64,000 nucleotides of DNA. It comes from Salibacterium aidingense DSM 18341. GTDB taxonomy: Bacteria; Bacillota; Bacilli; Bacillales; Marinococcaceae. This document shows, piece by piece, positions 2,691-10,019 of this stretch. The translations under genes and the position numbers were made by a program. Numbering within the stretch: position 1 is the first letter of the stretch; the number at the start of each line of letters is the position of its first letter. The notes under the pieces were generated by a model. The model searched no databases and was not told where the DNA came from. It worked only from the letters and a program-made list of their open reading frames with translations. The stretch is taken from positions 248,001 through 312,000 of the forward strand of contig NZ_AUCI01000001.1 of NCBI RefSeq assembly GCF_000429685.1, given 5' to 3'.

Positions 2691-4028
2691 TTATTCGTCC
2701 AACGTTTCCTTCGCTGTTTCTTCCACTTCCTGCGCTGCTTCCTCTGGAGTAATTGATTGGCCGAATAGTCCCTGCGTGGTATCTAAGTGGACCTGCGCTA
2801 CCTCCGGAGGCAGCGTCTGATCATAAAACGTCTGCAGGTAATCTGCTTCATTCAGCGTATTGCTTAACCGCTCCACATAGTCATCTTCATAATCTACACC
2901 CTTGATGGCTGAGATATTTCCGCTTCGGTTAGATAATCCCTGCGCCGTTTCCTGACTGCTCAATTCCTTTAGAAGCTCGACAGCGAGCTCCGGATTTTCG
3001 GTTTTTTCAGAAACTGAAAATGCGGGACTTACACCGCCGACAGCATGATTCTGACTACCTTCTCCGCCTTCAATCTCAGGAAACAAGAAGTAATCTAAAT
3101 TTTCCTCGAATTCAGGCATTTCATCTCTTACGTTATTCAGCATGGCACCGCTGTTCATGATTTCCATTGCCGCATCTCCGGAATACATCAGCTGCCTGGA
3201 CTGCCCATTGTCGTAATTCATTCCATTTACACCATCAGGAAAAGCACCCATTTCAACCAATTCCTGAATTTTTTCTCCCGCTTCGACATAGGCTTCATCA
3301 TCAAATGTTCTGCCGGAACGATTAAACGCTTCATCGAATAAGTCCGGGCCTCCCGTGCGCTCCGCTAAGTACATAAGATAGAACGCCCCGGGCCACTGGG
3401 GTTGATTTGCCAGGGCAAACGGAATAATATCATTGGCCGTTAACGTTTCCACAACCTCTAACAGCTCATCATAAGTTTCAGGTACTTCCAGGCCATGCTC
3501 TTCAAATATTTCTGTGTTATACCATACAGGAGTAAGTTCCATCCCTACAGGCACCCCGTAGATTTCATCATCAAAGGTGACTGTATCAAGGCCTGTCTGT
3601 AAAAATCTATCCGTTTCCACATCATCCGTTACGTTCATGACCTGATCGGAATTGACAAAGTTTTCAAGCCAGCCGCCTCCCCAGGAATGGAAAATATCGG
3701 GCGGAGAATTTCCTCCCATCGCTGTGATTATCTGTTCTTTATAGGCATCATTCTGATACTGGTTCAATTCCACCGTCACACCGTCATGCTCTTCTTCAAA
3801 TCGATCCGCCGCTTCCTGCAGCACTTCCTGGGCATTACCAGTTTCAATATGCCACACCGATAATACGTCGTCGCCTTCGGAAGCAGCATCCTCAGAACTA
3901 TCTTCTTCCCCGGACTCTCCCCCGGACTCCGATTCTCCGTCCGGTGTTTCCATGTTCTCCGAGGAAGGCTGGCATCCGGCAGCCATCAACAATACAGCTC
4001 CCATTAAAAGAAATAATAGATTTTTCAA
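2691..4028 (-). CDS. Sugar ABC transporter solute-binding lipoprotein (family 1)
   Basis: Binding protein of about 445 residues with a lipoprotein signal peptide; the lipobox LMAAGC puts the lipidated Cys near residue 19. An acidic Glu/Ser/Asp linker follows, and then a family 1 fold (DVLSVWHIETGN, later PPDIFHSWGGG and YGVPVGMELTPVWYNTE). I chose the TTG at 4028-4026 because a GGATGGGGG ribosome site sits at the right distance from it. The upstream in-frame ATG (4046) has its only AAGG directly abutting it and would add six residues before the signal peptide. It heads the operon with two permeases and GH43. The two candidate promoters imply a leader of about 140 or 240 nt. The high acidic content fits a halophile. 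Confidence 0.87.
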   Translation of the reverse strand: MKNLLFLLMGAVLLMAAGCQPSSENMETPDGESESGGESGEEDSSEDAASEGDDVLSVWHIETGNAQEVLQEAADRFEEEHDGVTVELNQYQNDAYKEQIITAMGGNSPPDIFHSWGGGWLENFVNSDQVMNVTDDVETDRFLQTGLDTVTFDDEIYGVPVGMELTPVWYNTEIFEEHGLEVPETYDELLEVVETLTANDIIPFALANQPQWPGAFYLMYLAERTGGPDLFDEAFNRSGRTFDDEAYVEAGEKIQELVEMGAFPDGVNGMNYDNGQSRQLMYSGDAAMEIMNSGAMLNNVRDEMPEFEENLDYFLFPEIEGGEGSQNHAVGGVSPAFSVSEKTENPELAVELLKELSSQETAQGLSNRSGNISAIKGVDYEDDYVERLSNTLNEADYLQTFYDQTLPPEVAQVHLDTTQGLFGQSITPEEAAQEVEETAKETLDE

Positions 4029-4181
4029 AATAAACAAAACCCCCATCCTTTTTGATATCGCTTACAAAATACAAAAAATAAAAAATGCTCCATCTGGCCT
4101 TTCGTCTGTTATCGCCCTCCTTCACATAATGATAGCTGTTTAGTTAGTTTGTTCATCCGATAAACTTAGTTGTTTTATTAC

Positions 4182-4300: not shown

Positions 4301-4354
4301 TTTAATAAAACAATGTTCTATATTATAAAATATATTAGTATAAAACAGACCTAA

Positions 4355-4379
4355 GGGCATGGCCGTTTCAGCCATGCCC
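4355..4379 (-). terminator. Terminator of the TRAP/HPr-like operon
   Basis: GGGCATGGC pairs perfectly with GCCATGCCC (9 bp, 7-nt loop), about 40 bp after the HPr-like stop codon. The T tract on the minus strand is broken (TTAGGTCTGTTTTAT), so termination may be moderate. Confidence 0.6.
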
Positions 4380-4417
4380 CTGTCCCCCGCTGTTTTAAAA
4401 AAATATTCAATTAATAG

Positions 4418-4675
4418 TTAGGTCAAAAAGTTAATAACTTTGGCTGCAGCTTCTTCAGCATCAGACCCAACGGCGCGGACAGTTACCTGATCTCCATTTT
4501 GAATATGCATACTAACCAGGCCAAGCAGGCTTTTCACATTTGCCTCGACCACATGCCCTTCCGAACGATTCATCAAATAGACTTCCGATTTGAATGGCTG
4601 AAGCAGCTGCCCCAGTTCTATCACCGTCTGATTTTCCTCAATCTGAATGATAATATTTTTCTGAAACTCTTCCAT
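4418..4675 (-). CDS. HPr-like regulatory protein without the active-site histidine
   Basis: 85-residue protein that aligns with HPr/Crh over its full length. The second half is well conserved: VKSLLGLVSM matches the Ser46 site (KSIMGVMSL in HPr) phosphorylated by HPr kinase, followed by NGDQVTV and a C-terminal AEEAAAKVINFL helix. The first half lacks the GLHARPA loop: where HPr has His15 and Crh has Gln15, this protein reads ENQTVIELGQ and is a few residues shorter. It therefore cannot act as a PTS phosphoryl carrier at His15 but could be modified at Ser46, so a regulatory, Crh-like role is inferred. It lies 33 bp after dctM and is probably the last gene of the TRAP operon. Ribosome site AGGAGG. 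Confidence 0.8.
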   Translation of the reverse strand: MEEFQKNIIIQIEENQTVIELGQLLQPFKSEVYLMNRSEGHVVEANVKSLLGLVSMHIQNGDQVTVRAVGSDAEEAAAKVINFLT

Positions 4676-4708
4676 CCTTACCTCCTGCCGCTTTCATTTG
4701 TATTCATC

Positions 4709-5989
4709 CTATCCTCGGAACGACGGTAAAAACATCGAGAGTTCCGGAATAAATATAATAATAAACAAGGTGATCAGCATCGCTATGAAAAACGGAATAA
4801 TTGCTTTTGACAGTTCTTCCAGCGACAACCCGGAAATCCCGGAGCCGACAAACAAATTAACGCCTAACGGCGGGGTGATAAACCCTATTGCCAAATTGAC
4901 AATCATAATGATCCCAAAGTGGACAGGGTGATATCCGATATCTGCCGCAATCGGGAGAAGAAGCGGCGTTAATATAATAATAGCTGCAAGTGTATCCATA
5001 AAGCAGCCTACTATTAATAACAGTAAAGTGATTAATAAAATTAGTACAATTGGATTTTCAGAAACGGACAGCATACCATCGGCCACCTGACTTGGAATCT
5101 GTTCGCGCGTTAACAACTTTCCAAAGGCGGTGGCGGTCCCCACGATAATAAGAACCGTCGCTGTAGTTAAAGCACCTGCGGAAATAACCCCGGGTAATTG
5201 GGTAATGCTTAATTCCCGATGTAATACCATACTGACAAATAGTCCGTAAACAACAGCAATCACTGCCGCCTCTGTTGGGGTAAAAACGCCTCCGTAAATC
5301 CCGCCCAGGATGATCACAGGGATAAGCAGCGCCCATTTGGCGTGCCAGATTGTTTTCCCAAATACTCTCCAGGAAAAAGCTTCATCGGAAGATTTATAGC
5401 CCATTTTTTTCGAATAATAATAGGCATAGATAATTAAGCCTATGGCTACAATGATTCCTGGCAGGATACCTGCGATAAATAAGTCCCCGATCGAGGTGGA
5501 ACCGACTACACCATAAATAACCATCGGAATACTTGGTGGAATAATAACCCCTAACGATCCGGCAGCGGCCACCGTTGCCGTCGCAAATCGTTTATCATAC
5601 CCCATGCGCACCATGGCCGGAATCATAATTCCCCCGATAGCCGCAACCGTAGCAGGAGCCGAACCGGAAATCGCAGCAAAAAACATACATGTAATAATCG
5701 TTGCAATCGCAAAACCGCCCGTTTTATTTCCTACAAGAGCATTGGCAACGCCGAACAATCTGTCCGTGATGCCGCCTCTTCCCATTATCTCTCCCGCAAG
5801 AATAAAGAACGGCACCGCCATTAATGGAAAGGAATCCACAGACGTTACCAGTTCCTGCGCTAGAAACTCTACCGGCATTGCCCCGGAATAGGTAATCGAA
5901 ATGAGCGTCGCCAGACCCAGCGCAATCCCTACCGGCACACTTAATAATAAAAGGATCGCAAAACTAACAAATAAGATCGCTGCTGTCAT
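4709..5989 (-). CDS. dctM: TRAP transporter large permease DctM
   Basis: 426-residue, roughly 12-segment membrane protein of the DctM (IT superfamily) type. Recognisable features are PFFILAGEIMGRGGITDRLF near residue 60, the SGSAPATVAAIGGIMIPAM segment, GVIIPPSIPMVIYG, GGIYGGVFTPTEAA, and the C-terminal NLAIGFITPPLGVNLFVG. It is the Na+-coupled translocation subunit and works with DctQ and the DctP binding protein. The ribosome site (AGGAGG) overlaps the dctQ stop region, 11 bp away. Confidence 0.95.
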   Translation of the reverse strand: MTAAILFVSFAILLLLSVPVGIALGLATLISITYSGAMPVEFLAQELVTSVDSFPLMAVPFFILAGEIMGRGGITDRLFGVANALVGNKTGGFAIATIITCMFFAAISGSAPATVAAIGGIMIPAMVRMGYDKRFATATVAAAGSLGVIIPPSIPMVIYGVVGSTSIGDLFIAGILPGIIVAIGLIIYAYYYSKKMGYKSSDEAFSWRVFGKTIWHAKWALLIPVIILGGIYGGVFTPTEAAVIAVVYGLFVSMVLHRELSITQLPGVISAGALTTATVLIIVGTATAFGKLLTREQIPSQVADGMLSVSENPIVLILLITLLLLIVGCFMDTLAAIIILTPLLLPIAADIGYHPVHFGIIMIVNLAIGFITPPLGVNLFVGSGISGLSLEELSKAIIPFFIAMLITLFIIIFIPELSMFLPSFRG

Positions 5990-6000
5990 TGAAGTTCCTC

Positions 6001-6579
6001 CTAACCTTTCGGATCCGGACGCTCATTTTGGTTCACATCTTCTACCAGATCTTCCTGATCCTCTAACGCTTTTTGATGCTCCATTTCCACTTCAAAGGAG
6101 TCTTTTCCAAAGAGGGCTTTCCCCTGTTTCAAAAGCTGCTGTATTAATCTTATGACCGTCAGTCCCATACCAGCAGGAGTCGCCAGATAAACCACCCCCA
6201 TAGGGAGATGAAGGGCCGGGGACTGCTGTCCCAGTTCCCATATACGTAACGCTATATCCTGACCATAATAAATAATAACGATAGCAAAAATCATAAATAT
6301 AAGATTGGCCAGCATATTCATCGCAATTTTTCCTCGTTGTTTAAAAAAAATCAGCATGGCATCTACTTTAATATGTCTCTGTTTTTTCACCCCGTAGCTG
6401 ATGCCAATATAAACGAGCCAAATGAAACAATATCGTGCCAGTTCCTCCGACCAGGACAAGGAGTCCCCCATGACATAACGCATAAATACCTGCATCGCGA
6501 TAACAACAACCATGATCGAGGAAAACACAACGAGCAGAAATTCTTCAAAATGTTCATCCAGCCAGCGTACAACGCGCAT
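6001..6579 (-). CDS. dctQ: TRAP transporter small permease DctQ
   Basis: 192-residue protein with four predicted membrane segments and the DctQ signature: SWSEELARYCFIWLVYIG near residue 40 and the basic GVKKQRHIKVD loop after it. The C-terminus (from about residue 155) is a charged cytoplasmic tail. It scaffolds DctM and lies between dctP and dctM in the standard P-Q-M order. Ribosome site AGGTGG before ATG 6579. Confidence 0.93.
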   Translation of the reverse strand: MRVVRWLDEHFEEFLLVVFSSIMVVVIAMQVFMRYVMGDSLSWSEELARYCFIWLVYIGISYGVKKQRHIKVDAMLIFFKQRGKIAMNMLANLIFMIFAIVIIYYGQDIALRIWELGQQSPALHLPMGVVYLATPAGMGLTVIRLIQQLLKQGKALFGKDSFEVEMEHQKALEDQEDLVEDVNQNERPDPKG

Positions 6580-6687
6580 TCATTCCACCTGCCTTCTTCT
6601 TCTTAACAAGAAAAGATAAACAAAACAATGAGCTTCTAAAACCATTAAAATAATAATTCTTTTCCGATCTTTTCTATTCTTATGAAG

Positions 6688-6716
6688 GGAAGGAACTGTG
6701 ACGGACAGTCCCTTCC
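6688..6716 (-). terminator. Hairpin between dctP and dctQ
   Basis: GGAAGGAACTGT and ACAGTCCCTTCC pair over 12 bp with one mismatch around a 5-nt loop, 10 bp after the dctP stop. No strong T tract follows. It probably attenuates read-through so that the binding protein is made in excess. Confidence 0.6.
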
Positions 6717-6725
6717 AATTTCTAT

Positions 6726-7814
6726 TTATTCTACACTTTCCTCCGCTTCTTCTACAGCTTCATATACTTCATCCACGAAATCCGTACCGATATCTTCGGC
6801 ATATTGATCAATAACAGGCTGGACAATATCTGCCATTTCAGAACGGGCCTCATCCGACACTTCTGTTATCTCCATGCCTTCTTCCTCAAGACTGCCAAGA
6901 AGCTCTTCGTTGGCTTTACGATTCTGCTCCCGCTGGAATTCGCCGGCTTCCACTGCGGCGTCTTTCACAATAGTCTGATATTCATCCGGAAGGCTGTCAT
7001 AAAACTGTTTACTCATGAGAAAAACAAATGGACTATATACATGATGGGTATCGGAATAGTAATCCTGTACTTCATAAAACCCTTCCAGATAGATGGTTGC
7101 CAGCGGGTTTTCCTGTCCATCCACCGTTCCTTGCTGCATGGCCGTGAACAGCTCGCCAAAGGCCATTGGGGTAGGATTGGCTCCCAGTTCTTCAAAGGCA
7201 TCCAGGTGCAGGTCATTTTCCATCGTACGGAGGGTAAGACCGTTAAAGTCTTCTGCTGTTTCTACCGGGTGCTGACTGTTTGTAAGATCACGGAATCCGT
7301 TTTCCCAATAGGCTAACCCAACCATTTCTTCTTCTTCTAATTTATCCAGCAGACGGTCCCCGATTTCTCCATCCAGTACTTTATCCGCTACTTGTTCATT
7401 TGGAAATAAGAATGGAAAATCAAATACAGTAAATTCTTCCACAAAATTGGCCATGGGAGCTGTAGAAGGAATGGTCACCTCCTGGGTATTCAGCTGCAAT
7501 GCTTCCATCATCTCCCGGTCATCACCCAGCTGACCGCTGTGGTATGTTTCTACATGAATATCTCCATCTGTTTCTTCTTCTACAATATCTTTAAACTCAA
7601 GCAGCCCTTCATATTGGGGATGTTCGTTATTAAGTCCAATCCCCGCTTCAATAGTGTAGGATGCTTCACCATTTGAATCGTTACCGTTTTCCGATGCTGT
7701 ATCTTCTCCTTCGGAAGCGCTTCCATTTTCGGAATCCGCTTCTTCTCCTCCTCCGCAAGCTGTAAGACCAATCAGTGTAAGCGAGAATATACTTGCCAGA
7801 AATACTTTTTTCAT
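6726..7814 (-). CDS. dctP: TRAP transporter solute-binding lipoprotein DctP
   Basis: Mature DctP-family binding protein with a lipoprotein signal (MKKVFLASIFSLTLIGLTAC, lipid Cys 20) and an acidic linker. The family landmarks are LTLRTMEN, whose Arg normally salt-bridges the ligand carboxylate, and VDGQENPLATIYLEGFYEVQ. The start at 7814 is set by a GGGGGAGG ribosome site 5 bp upstream; the reading frame stays open a further 37 codons without a plausible site. Because the Arg is present, the ligand is probably a small organic or sugar acid. Neighbouring hydroxyacid dehydrogenase and RpiA genes hint at a sugar acid, but the ligand is not determined. Confidence 0.93.
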   Translation of the reverse strand: MKKVFLASIFSLTLIGLTACGGGEEADSENGSASEGEDTASENGNDSNGEASYTIEAGIGLNNEHPQYEGLLEFKDIVEEETDGDIHVETYHSGQLGDDREMMEALQLNTQEVTIPSTAPMANFVEEFTVFDFPFLFPNEQVADKVLDGEIGDRLLDKLEEEEMVGLAYWENGFRDLTNSQHPVETAEDFNGLTLRTMENDLHLDAFEELGANPTPMAFGELFTAMQQGTVDGQENPLATIYLEGFYEVQDYYSDTHHVYSPFVFLMSKQFYDSLPDEYQTIVKDAAVEAGEFQREQNRKANEELLGSLEEEGMEITEVSDEARSEMADIVQPVIDQYAEDIGTDFVDEVYEAVEEAEESVE

Positions 7815-8159
7815 TTTCCTCCCCCTCAAGATTATAAATAATAATTTATATGGAAGAACCAGCAGCAGTGTATACAGCTCCCGCTGATTCACACCAACAT
7901 TGTTCGGTAAGTATGTACTTTCCATTCGAATGGCACTTTCCGGAGAATAGACTCCCGGAGCAGGTTATCTGCTGGGCAGCGGACCTTCTCCTCTGCCGAC
8001 GCATCCATTGGATGGAGCCACTTAGTTAAAACGCTTTCATAAGTCCTGTTAATCAACACAACAAATTCATCATCCAAGACTAATTCTATGAGGACAGAAG
8101 ATATTTCTCCAGTCGTCCAGTAAATGGAAACCATGTCAAAATTATTTTCGATTAATCTT

Positions 8160-8323: not shown

Positions 8324-9301
8324 GTGAGTAAATGGAAAGTACTGGTTACAGATTATACCTATGATACACTGGCGCCAGAAAGGGACGTTCTCAAAACAGT
8401 GGATGCGGAGCTTATACCAGCGCAATGCCGCACGGAGGAAGATGTAATCGATGCGGCCCGGAAAGTTGATGGTATTATCAACCAATACGCCCCCCTATCA
8501 AAAGAGGTGATACAGAGCCTGAGTCGTTGTAAAATCATTTCCAGATACGGCGTGGGATTTGATACGATCGACGTGAACACGGCGACAAAACATGGAATTA
8601 TGGTGAGCAACGTCACCGATTACTGCGCAGAGGAAGTCTCCAATCATGCCTTTGCCCTGCTGCTGGCATGTGCAAGAAAAATCGTCCAGCTCCATGAGTC
8701 TGTCAGAAACGGAAATTGGGATCCTAAGATTATGAAACCCGCCTACCGGATGAGCGGACAAAAGCTGGGACTCATTGGTTTTGGGAACATACCACAAATG
8801 TTAAGCAAAAAGGCACAGGCCTTTGGATTAGAAGTTATGGCTTACGACCCCTTTGCTTCTTTAAAAACTGCGGCATCCATGGGTGTTCATATGGTAGATC
8901 TGGACATCCTCTGCCGGGAATCAGACTTCATTTCTGTTCATCCTCCATTAAATGAAAAAACAAGGGGGATGTTAAGTGATGATCAATTTTCGTTAATGAA
9001 AACAAGCGCTTTTGTTATTAATACATCCCGGGGGCCGGTGATAGATGAAGCAGCATTGATCAGAGCCCTTCAGACCGAGGAAATCGCAGGTGCCGGGCTG
9101 GATGTGCTGGAAACAGAACCAATGATGCCTGATCATCCGCTGCGGGACATGGACAACGTTATTTTAACCCCGCACGCTGCGTATTACTCCACAGCGTCGG
9201 AATTAGAGTTAAAACAAAAAACCGCGCAAAATGTTGCAGACGTATTGTCCGGCAGGACCCCCTCCTACCTGGTCAACCAGGAGCTTAAACAATCCAATTG
9301 A
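8324..9301 (+). CDS. D-2-hydroxyacid dehydrogenase, CtBP/SerA-like
   Basis: 325-residue NAD(P)-dependent D-2-hydroxyacid dehydrogenase. The substrate half contains ISRYGVGFDTIDVNTA. The nucleotide-binding motif is LGLIGFGNIP, where the third Gly of GxGxxG is replaced by Pro. The catalytic triad is present: Arg in INTSRGPVIDE, Glu in GLDVLETEPM and His in LTPHAAYYS. The start is GTG with a GGAAGGAG ribosome site. It is followed 13 bp later by rpiA and is divergent from the TRAP importer, so it probably oxidises or reduces the imported acid or a derivative. The substrate is unknown; a serine-biosynthetic role is unlikely because the C-terminal ACT domain is absent. Confidence 0.88.
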   Translation: MSKWKVLVTDYTYDTLAPERDVLKTVDAELIPAQCRTEEDVIDAARKVDGIINQYAPLSKEVIQSLSRCKIISRYGVGFDTIDVNTATKHGIMVSNVTDYCAEEVSNHAFALLLACARKIVQLHESVRNGNWDPKIMKPAYRMSGQKLGLIGFGNIPQMLSKKAQAFGLEVMAYDPFASLKTAASMGVHMVDLDILCRESDFISVHPPLNEKTRGMLSDDQFSLMKTSAFVINTSRGPVIDEAALIRALQTEEIAGAGLDVLETEPMMPDHPLRDMDNVILTPHAAYYSTASELELKQKTAQNVADVLSGRTPSYLVNQELKQSN

Positions 9302-9314
9302 TAGGAGAAGTGAA

Positions 9315-10019
9315 ATGGGCAAGCAGAACCACTATACCAAATTAACAACACAGCGGGACGTTGATAAAAAAAGGGCAGCTGAAAAATCCGTAGACTTTAT
9401 GGAAGATGGCATGACCATCGGACTAGGATCTGGATCCACCGTATATTGGATGATGAAAAAATTAAAAGAGAAAATGAAACAAGGTCTTCATATAACCGGT
9501 GTGCCTTCTTCCACTCGCACCGAGAAATGGGCAGTAGAATGGCAGATTCCTCTTACAAATTTTCATGAAGTTCAAACGATTGATGTAGCGATTGATGGAG
9601 CTGATGAAATAGACGCCCATCTAAACCTGCTAAAGGGCGGCGGCGGTTCTCTCGTAAGAGAAAAAATTGTCATTCAGGCTTCCAAACAGGTTGTGATCAT
9701 TGGAGAACAATCCAAGCTCGTCTCCCGTTTAGGCGCCGCCCCCCTTCCCGTCGAAGTACTTCCATTCGGCTGGGAGGCCGTGGCAGCCCATATTTCGGAA
9801 CTGGGATGTATCCCTGATTTAAGAAAAAAGAATGGAGAAGTGTTCGTTTCCGACAACGGGAACTATATATTGGATTGTCCGTTTCACACCATTCATGACC
9901 CAAAAGCTCTCGATGACAAAATTAAAAATATCGCCGGCGTAGTCGATACCGGATTGTTTGTCCAGGCAGCAGATACTGCCATTATCGGAGAAAATAATGA
10001 CGTTCAAATACTCCCATAA
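9315..10019 (+). CDS. rpiA: Ribose-5-phosphate isomerase A
   Basis: 234-residue RpiA, interconverting ribose 5-phosphate and ribulose 5-phosphate in the cytoplasm. All landmark motifs are visible: GLGSGSTVYW (phosphate loop), VAIDGADEID with the two active-site Asp, and LLKGGGGSLVREKIV with the catalytic Lys and Glu. I chose ATG 9315 because AGGAGAAG lies just upstream; the frame is open further back but that part overlaps the dehydrogenase gene. Bacilli usually carry RpiB for the housekeeping reaction, so this RpiA in a TRAP/dehydrogenase cassette may process a catabolic pentose phosphate or a related substrate. Confidence 0.92.
   Translation: MGKQNHYTKLTTQRDVDKKRAAEKSVDFMEDGMTIGLGSGSTVYWMMKKLKEKMKQGLHITGVPSSTRTEKWAVEWQIPLTNFHEVQTIDVAIDGADEIDAHLNLLKGGGGSLVREKIVIQASKQVVIIGEQSKLVSRLGAAPLPVEVLPFGWEAVAAHISELGCIPDLRKKNGEVFVSDNGNYILDCPFHTIHDPKALDDKIKNIAGVVDTGLFVQAADTAIIGENNDVQILP

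Follow-up and report, generated by a model that had tools for sequence, protein, structure and literature searches.

A gene at the end of a TRAP transporter operon in Salibacterium aidingense DSM 18341 encodes a small HPr-like protein, here termed HPrL, which is an operon-dedicated paralogue of HPr that retains only the Ser46 site and is distinct from Crh. Because the histidine has been lost while the serine that in HPr reports nutritional state has been kept, and this within operons for sugar-acid uptake, HPrL may serve as a private on/off switch of one uptake system. Most likely, HprK/P phosphorylates HPrL, and HPrL matches either TRAP transport or a local repression by CcpA to the carbon status of the cell. 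More specifically, we tentatively favor phospho-switched control of TRAP sugar-acid uptake, a private and Crh-like form of inducer exclusion, with a probability of roughly 0.4.

The HPrL gene and its predicted fold

The window, meaning the whole stretch of 64,000 nucleotides that was analyzed, carries on its minus strand dctP for the TRAP solute-binding lipoprotein (6726..7814; PF03480, 351 bits; TIGR00787, 281 bits), dctQ for the small permease subunit (6001..6579; PF04290, 117.7 bits), dctM for the large permease subunit (4709..5989; PF06808, 408.6 bits; TIGR00786, 442 bits) and, 33 bp after dctM, the HPrL gene (4418..4675), with stop codons counted in throughout. The longest open reading frame of dctP begins at 7925, and the start that gives a lipoprotein signal lies at 7814. 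A ribosome-binding site, AGGAGGT, can be read just 5' of the HPrL ATG (4680..4686, minus strand), and a terminator-like hairpin of 13 pairs with a T-rich tail is located 3' of the gene (4353..4381, minus strand); four terminator-like sites occur near this end against a shuffle mean of 4.0, the other three having only 6-8 pairs. Divergent from the operon, on the plus strand, are genes for a D-2-hydroxyacid dehydrogenase (8324..9301; PF02826/PF00389; cluster c7, found in 24/54 related loci) and a ribose-5-phosphate isomerase A paralogue (9309..10019; TIGR00021, 260 bits; cluster c17, found in 4/54).

An earlier note on this DNA had placed an 85-residue HPr-like protein at the end of the TRAP operon, and this is borne out by the open reading frame and by its match to PTS-HPr (PF00381), which at 47.9 bits lies well above the gathering cut-off of 23. 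The HPr fold, for which the same note had proposed a structure prediction, was indeed obtained: the AlphaFold2 model has a pLDDT of 92.8 and the b-a-b-b-a-b-a topology of HPr, and it superimposes on 3ihs (Z 14.0, rmsd 1.7, 81 residues) and on Crh 1zvv (Z 13.1, 79 residues). The ribosome-binding site, the operon spacing, the fold model and the existence of a 57-member family together rule out a chance reading frame or an annotation artefact. A SpoVS-like match remained below the cut-off (E 0.03), no PHROGs match was found, and a search of a plasmid collection gave no match that would suggest a plasmid-borne gene.

In the alignment, VKSLLGLVSM is the counterpart of the Ser46 helix, so that Ser49 of HPrL corresponds to Ser46 of HPr, and EENQTVIEL stands in place of the His15 loop (GLHARPA); there is no histidine among residues 1-30. 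Since His15 is absent, HPrL cannot accept phosphate from Enzyme I at that position, and its sequence retains K-S-x-L-G-L, the putative target segment of HprK/P.

A family linked to TRAP genes

HPrL proteins form a well-separated family, bounded by a profile score of at least 100 bits, with the next matches below 50 bits; the five of these lower matches that were examined (L127-L131) are Crh proteins encoded with a WhiA homologue. A profile search found 49 loci in 48/397 genomes of the order sample, covering 16 GTDB families and 23 genera, and 3 further genomes among the 299 of the class sample, with none in the phylum sample (398 genomes) besides that of the window. Family counts given here refer to 57 loci, i.e., 54 tabulated loci and 3 from the class sample. 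All 57 members match PTS-HPr at E <= 0.001, and none matches another domain at that threshold. Thr17, Lys48, Ser49, Leu51, Gly52 and Leu53 are invariant in 57/57, whereas histidine is found at positions 12-22 in 0/57 and at position 11 in just 8, which upholds the claim of a kept Ser46 kinase-site segment and a missing His15 loop. The usual replacement of the GLxAR(P/S)A loop is E-x-Q-T-I-x-E-L. Because HPrL is conserved over 16 families of the order sample, mere decay is unlikely, and the reading of HPrL as a misplaced or degraded Crh was rejected on this conservation and because the genome of the window has its own Crh and HPr. Besides HPrL, that genome encodes a normal HPr, Crh (after WhiA), HprK and CcpA.

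The association with TRAP genes extends far beyond one genome: they occur in the cluster of HPrL at 56/57 loci, mostly alongside genes of the hexonate (galactonate-type) kind. Among the 397 order genomes, HPrL is present in 45/54 that encode a DctM at least 70% identical to that of the window and in 3/343 of the others; HPrL thus mainly follows one TRAP subfamily. In the remaining 9/54 the TRAP genes are kept without HPrL, which makes it an accessory component. HPrL lies immediately 3' of dctM in 22/54 loci, and also in L134, and in most others it is located elsewhere in the cluster.

The TRAP genes are constant while the catabolic genes around HPrL vary between settings: galactonate dehydratase, KDPG aldolase and KDG kinase; DhaK/DhaL/TIM with LacI, together with DeoR in 2/3 loci (L037, L038, L051); and a shikimate-kinase-like setting. 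In the three DhaK/DhaL loci HPrL lies beside LacI or LacI/DeoR regulators, divergent from TRAP genes that resemble those of the window less, and in L037 and L038 it directly follows the DeoR regulator gene. In L124 HPrL is 3' of galactonate dehydratase, AEC is also kept, and the sole TRAP set seen is distant (28-39% identity) and about 10 kb upstream.

HprK, cre boxes and the possible roles of HPrL

HprK scored above the cut-off in 51/54 HPrL genomes searched, the other three being incomplete or contaminated assemblies, and a match was present in 49/49 of those of good quality. The search gave no match in the B. subtilis control genome, although an HprK gene is known from B. subtilis; absences are therefore unsafe, and presences remain valid. 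Because HprK is, to our knowledge, general among these bacteria, its presence weakly supports a phosphorylation switch. Additional full-length HprK copies occur in 5/54 HPrL genomes (seven copies); a second HprK as a dedicated HPrL kinase was rejected, as no HPr-like gene adjoins it in the five loci examined out of these seven copies.

As an operon-dedicated HPr paralogue outside the PTS, HPrL would be phosphorylated by HprK/P at Ser49 when glycolytic intermediates are high, and the phosphate would switch its binding to a partner in the TRAP sugar-acid uptake module, with the DctQM permease as the most probable candidate. In the presence of a better carbon source, the import of hexonates and related acids would thereby be restrained at the level of the protein, i.e., HPrL would bring about inducer exclusion, its gene being placed like that of TeaD, a TRAP regulator in Halomonas. 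A stricter version, which makes HPrL a regulatory subunit of the TRAP transporter that is switched by phosphorylation, with P-Ser49 leading to bound DctQM and closed uptake, is doubtful, though it deserves consideration.

Control might instead be exerted on transcription, with P-Ser-HPrL, produced only when the operon is on, acting as a local CcpA co-repressor that represses the operon via cre, in the manner of P-Ser-Crh, and Crh is the nearest solved sequence relative of HPrL. Using a cre consensus given in a part of PMC4591507, boxes with at most 1 mismatch were found upstream of 13/30 readable same-strand runs containing HPrL, against a mean of 1.0 (sd 1.0, largest 4) in 60 shuffles; these 13 regions are not independent, however, because some come from close relatives. 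A co-localized cre site was rejected for the window, where only 2-mismatch sites lie upstream of dctP; a perfect site at 4052-4067 precedes a neighboring ABC binding-protein-like reading frame, not the TRAP operon. Moreover, CcpA, though encoded in the genome of the window, is already served there by normal HPr and Crh, and HPrL is devoid of the loop bearing His15 and Arg17, which we take to be CcpA contacts. We consider a co-repressor role rather unlikely on balance.

Another product of the cluster could also be the target, be it the AEC transporter, galactonate dehydratase, a sugar-acid kinase or a local regulator, comparable to the inhibition of MgsA by unphosphorylated Crh; passages of PMC9631020 and PMC13130090 describe an action of Crh on this enzyme that depends on the Ser46 state. 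HPrL adjoins an AEC-family transporter gene in 20/54 loci, nearly matching the arrangement of dctM followed by HPrL, and AEC could therefore be a partner. Distance correlation with HPrL is highest for AEC (0.64), followed by DctQ (0.58), galactonate dehydratase (0.57), DctM (0.50) and DctP (0.21); these values single out no gene, and DctM as sole partner by co-evolution was rejected. The arrangement of L124 and the position of HPrL directly after the DeoR regulator gene in L037 and L038 likewise point toward such a product. Yet AEC (34/54), galactonate dehydratase (26/54) and RpiR (18/54), counted over fetched flanks that are short at some loci, are each less constant than TRAP, and a target of this kind is less probable than a co-repressor role.

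The least probable reading is that HPrL is not phosphorylated at all and is a constitutive adaptor that does not report carbon status, with Ser49 and Thr17 acting as helix N-caps. In the model, helices start directly after these two invariant residues (18-24 after Thr17; 50-55, helix B, after Ser49), so the role of Ser49 is possibly structural and its conservation alone is no proof of phosphorylation; the serine is also present in E. coli NPr, and we know of no HprK in E. coli. However, the invariance of Lys48, Leu51, Gly52 and Leu53 seems to go beyond what a cap would need.

HPr and Crh are global proteins, and a single cellular pool reports carbon status. If control of uptake by HPrL holds true, cells would attach the HprK signal to a single transporter through an HPr paralogue confined to one type of uptake operon, and closure of DctQM by P-HPrL would mean that a private HPr exerts inducer exclusion on a secondary transporter that depends on a binding protein. 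HPrL offers a compact, testable system in which to study non-PTS inducer exclusion and the regulation of TRAP transporters. It also calls for caution, in that HPr-family proteins of Bacillales include members unable to carry the His15 phosphate.

Comparison with known systems

In the open-licence PubMed Central literature searched, we found no description of a TRAP-linked HPr or of an HPr-type control layer for TRAP systems. We know of one precedent for the regulation of a TRAP transporter, namely TeaD. Like HPrL of the window, TeaD of Halomonas elongata is a small protein encoded directly 3' of a TRAP operon, but it is a universal stress protein of an unrelated family, a domain that is missing from HPrL (57/57). 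Deletion of teaD, which follows teaABC, increased ectoine uptake and left teaA mRNA unchanged, as stated in part of PMC2964678.

HPrL resembles HPr (PtsH) in fold, Ser46 helix and C-terminal helix but has neither His15 nor the GIHARPA motif, and HPrL of the window scores 38.6 against TIGR01003 (PtsH), below the cut-off of 47.9. Its best single-sequence PDB match is E. coli NPr (PtsO; 5t17, E 4e-5), which keeps the serine of the Ser46 segment without its Lys and Gly, whereas HPrL has all three; the phosphohistidine is retained in E. coli NPr. The HPr domain of DhaM and HPrL are both HPr relatives linked to dihydroxyacetone-kinase-type enzymes, in the case of HPrL at the three loci with DhaK/DhaL-like genes; however, the DhaM model matches just 9/57 members (best E 2.7e-5), and DhaM requires a histidine that HPrL does not have.

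The closest comparison is with Crh of Bacillus, which shares with HPrL the HPr fold, the absence of His15 and the retained Ser46 site, and which is its nearest solved relative by profile (1zvv, 45 bits). Crh retains G-L-Q-A-R, whereas HPrL lacks the entire loop, including Gln15, and carries four additional residues between its second and third strands. Against PRK13782, presumably the Crh-type NCBIfam model, HPrL of the window scores 32.7 bits, below the equivalog cut-off of 123. Three genes for an "HPr-like protein Crh" are listed for Bacillus endophyticus in a portion of PMC4527741. That Crh is not encoded with TRAP genes, as the earlier note had held, agrees with the gene neighborhoods: a WhiA homologue accompanies Crh in the genome of the window (L001) and in 5/5 Crh-type loci and is absent from all 57 HPrL loci (54 tabulated, ORFs of at least 100 aa, and 3 from the class sample), so that the Crh gene is found with WhiA and HPrL with TRAP genes.

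The TRAP operon and its HPr-like protein

The TRAP operon of the window lies on the reverse strand and comprises dctP (6726-7814), dctQ (6001-6579) and dctM (4709-5989), all assigned by Pfam and NCBIfam, followed 33 bp past dctM by an 85-residue ORF (4418-4675) matching PTS-HPr, whose product, a His15-less HPr-like protein, is termed HPrL here. AGGAGGT stands immediately 5' of its ATG, and a 13-pair hairpin (4381-4353, reverse strand) lies 3' of this last gene. A 2-hydroxyacid dehydrogenase, RpiA and an AraC regulator are encoded divergently, and the substrate of the system is probably a sugar acid. A perfect cre-consensus match at 4052-4067 (reverse strand), one of two in the whole window, lies just 5' of an ABC-type binding-protein-like ORF (2691-4046); the window holds 10 cre-like sites with at most one mismatch against a chance mean of 6.0, an unclear excess.

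HPrL scores 47.9 bits against Pfam PTS-HPr (gathering 23; residues 21-84) and 38.6 against the NCBIfam HPr subfamily model, whose cut-off of 47.9 it does not reach, and it falls far under the NCBIfam equivalog cut-offs for HPr, NPr and PRK13782. All 57 HPrL members match PTS-HPr, with no second Pfam family at E 0.001. AlphaFold2 gave a pLDDT of 87.1 from a 7-sequence alignment and of 92.8 (pTM 0.83) from a 57-sequence alignment, the latter model having strand 3-9, helix 18-24, strands 31-38 and 41-46, helix 50-55, strand 63-69 and helix 73-84. With the 7-sequence model, Foldseek retrieved HPr and Crh entries (E down to 7.8e-6), its top 38 rows all being HPr, Crh or NPr entries, some in complexes. 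In VIA-align, the 57-sequence model matched 3ihs at Z 14.0 (rmsd 1.7, 81 residues) and Crh in 1zvv at Z 13.1 (rmsd 1.6, 79 residues), the best unrelated row reaching Z 5.2. The HPr fold that the earlier note proposed is thus borne out by HMM search and structure prediction alike.

Thr17, Lys48, Ser49 (Ser46 of HPr), Leu51, Gly52, Leu53, Gly70, Asp72 and Ala76 are invariant in the 57 members; residue 18 is always Ile or Val, residue 20 is acidic in 55, and His is absent from positions 12-22 throughout (His11 occurs in 8). Between strands 2 and 3, HPrL has four residues that the HPr and the Crh encoded in its genome lack. Judged by these residues, the segment facing HprK is preserved and the loop facing Enzyme I has been lost, so that the presence of the Ser46 site and the loss of the His15 loop, claimed initially for this one protein, extend to the whole set. 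Conservation of the serine by itself is weak evidence, because Ser49 immediately precedes helix 2 in the model and the serine is also found in E. coli NPr, where the adjoining Lys and Gly are missing; conservation of the whole Ser49 segment is stronger evidence. Since helix 1 starts immediately after Thr17 and residues 17-20 read T-x-x-E, the pattern of a helix capping box, a closed turn looks to take the place of the open active-site loop of HPr.

Two other His15-less HPr-like ORFs occur in the same genome. One, of 140 residues (L004:1450-1869; G000:C2, about 222562; PTS-HPr 35.8 bits, NGKSTLG site), is flanked by genes for an MscS-family channel and an HD-domain protein, and similar frames of 144-161 residues are found in several genomes of the GTDB family. 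The other (L005:1426-1686; G000:C6, about 90291; 36.6 bits, NGKSILG site) has a UPF0180 ORF and a metallo-beta-lactamase-fold/HHH ORF at its locus. Together with HPrL, the genome therefore has three non-Crh His15-less HPr paralogues with a Ser46 site.

Distribution and genomic setting

The 57 distinct loci comprise 49 from a profile search of the order, 3 from the same-family search, 2 from named genomes and 3 from the class. A protein search of the window's GTDB family (29 genomes, the window's own among them) gave 7 true members scoring at least 65 bits and a remainder below 30; the named-genome scan gave 10 loci, in Salibacterium (2), Texcoconibacillus, Salipaludibacillus, Alteribacillus, Geomicrobium (2), Halalkalibacter, Gracilibacillus and Pontibacillus. 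At a score of at least 100 bits, a 12-sequence profile found 49 loci in 48 of 397 genomes from the order, spanning 16 GTDB families and 23 genera by our count. The next matches scored below 50 bits; the five inspected all carry the Crh-like GLQAR motif and a WhiA homologue 64-68% identical to the WhiA encoded next to Crh in the window's genome. Another 3 members (86-115 bits) lie outside the order among 299 genomes of the class, and 398 genomes of the phylum gave no match at E 1e-13 except the window's own genome.

Across the order and named-genome sets (54 loci), HPrL lies immediately 3' of dctM in 22 (gaps of about 0-81 bp), farther along the same-strand run on the downstream side in 20, and downstream of a TRAP set outside the first-fetched region in 4 (L106, L108, L109, L116); in L090 an opposing 134-residue ORF breaks the run. 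Three loci (L085, L091, L094) have HPrL 5' of a co-oriented TRAP set, and in three (L037, L038, L051) it is divergent from nearby TRAP genes, beside LacI or LacI plus DeoR regulators. In L124 it lies 3' of galactonate dehydratase, and the sole TRAP set seen, distant (28-39% identity) and about 10 kb upstream, was excluded from the count. With TRAP upstream in all three class loci (L144, L145, L146), 56 of 57 clusters contain TRAP, and the expected co-occurrence beyond this genome is found. In a Geomicrobium assembly (L041:3570-6422), dctP and dctM are each divided between two ORFs, which may mean disrupted genes or sequencing errors; the HPr-like ORF is unbroken.

Reciprocally, the window's DctM had a counterpart of at least 70% identity in 54 of the 397 genomes, 45 of them with HPrL, which occurs in 3 of the 343 others (G019, G157, G382; Fisher p about 1.5e-46, shared descent ignored); the 45 is somewhat low, as the DctM frame beside HPrL in G157 is 76% identical but shortened. 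At 58-62% identity, 1 of 13 genomes has HPrL. The nine genomes with this TRAP but without HPrL gave no family-profile match (E 0.01) in 8.5-12.5 kb around dctM, and HPrL is therefore accessory, as expected of a regulator, rather than a core subunit. Nor is it restricted to this TRAP subfamily (more distant TRAP genes in L038, L051, L085 and L134).

Hexonate operons are the usual setting. Scanning one representative per gene cluster identified galactonate dehydratase (709.9 bits, cut-off 311), KDPG-type aldolase (TIGR01182, 187, cut-off 156) and 6-phosphogluconate dehydrogenase of the gnd_rel kind (469, cut-off 297), with a KDG-type kinase and an FGGY gluconokinase-like gene under their cut-offs, and also an RpiR regulator and an AEC-family transporter. 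At least one dehydratase, aldolase, sugar kinase, 6PGDH or FGGY cluster is present in 40 of 54 loci, or 46 with AEC and 2-hydroxyacid dehydrogenase added; the remaining eight have DhaK/DhaL/TIM (L037, L038, L051), a shikimate-kinase-like gene (L039, L040, L041, L091) or LacI only (L085). TRAP is the constant element. The shikimate-kinase-like gene recurs near TRAP-HPrL (L039:5529-6128; SKI-like ORFs in L040, L091, L142); the L039 ORF, the sole one scanned, is under every NCBIfam cut-off shown, and it is possibly a kinase of a different kind.

Possible carbon control and partners

The HPrL proteins form a genuine and conserved Ser46-only subfamily of HPr paralogues linked to a TRAP sugar-acid module, a subfamily of which we found no description in the open-licence PubMed Central literature searched. 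We favor, with a probability of about 0.4, the reading that HPrL would directly control TRAP uptake. Distance correlations with ten cluster genes (AEC 0.64, DctQ 0.58, galactonate dehydratase 0.57, KDPG aldolase 0.55, KDG kinase 0.54, DctM 0.50, 2-hydroxyacid dehydrogenase 0.40, DctP 0.21, RpiR 0.17, 6PGDH 0.06) do not indicate DctQM as its partner and count against direct control. Action on another partner in the cluster is rather unlikely, and that HPrL is not phosphorylated at all appears improbable.

HprK exceeds its cut-off in 51 of the 54 HPrL genomes searched (those of L046 and L051 lay outside the search), the other three being 62%, 80% and 90% complete, the last with 6% contamination. 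CcpA is present in the window's genome, and a cre-like box (at most one mismatch) precedes the HPrL-holding run in 13 of 30 readable loci, some from close relatives and hence not independent, against a mean of 1.0 (sd 1.0, largest 4) in 60 shuffles. By these predicted boxes HPrL operons look like CcpA targets, which speaks for HPrL as a local CcpA co-repressor, although the window's own upstream region has only 2-mismatch sites; we consider this role doubtful, and the boxes are compatible with transporter-level and CcpA-level roles alike. Extra full-length HprK paralogues (332-349 bits, over cut-off) occur in five genomes (G391, G129, G150, G047, G949), G949 having three extra copies in an assembly with 7% contamination; no HPr-like gene lies beside the extra HprK in the five loci inspected (L159-L163).

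If direct control of TRAP uptake holds, HPrL would combine a Crh-like switch with a TeaD-like gene place. Its proposed switch resembles that of Crh, and its gene place that of TeaD, the Halomonas elongata regulator encoded after its TRAP operon; by sequence and location, HPrL is a member of neither.
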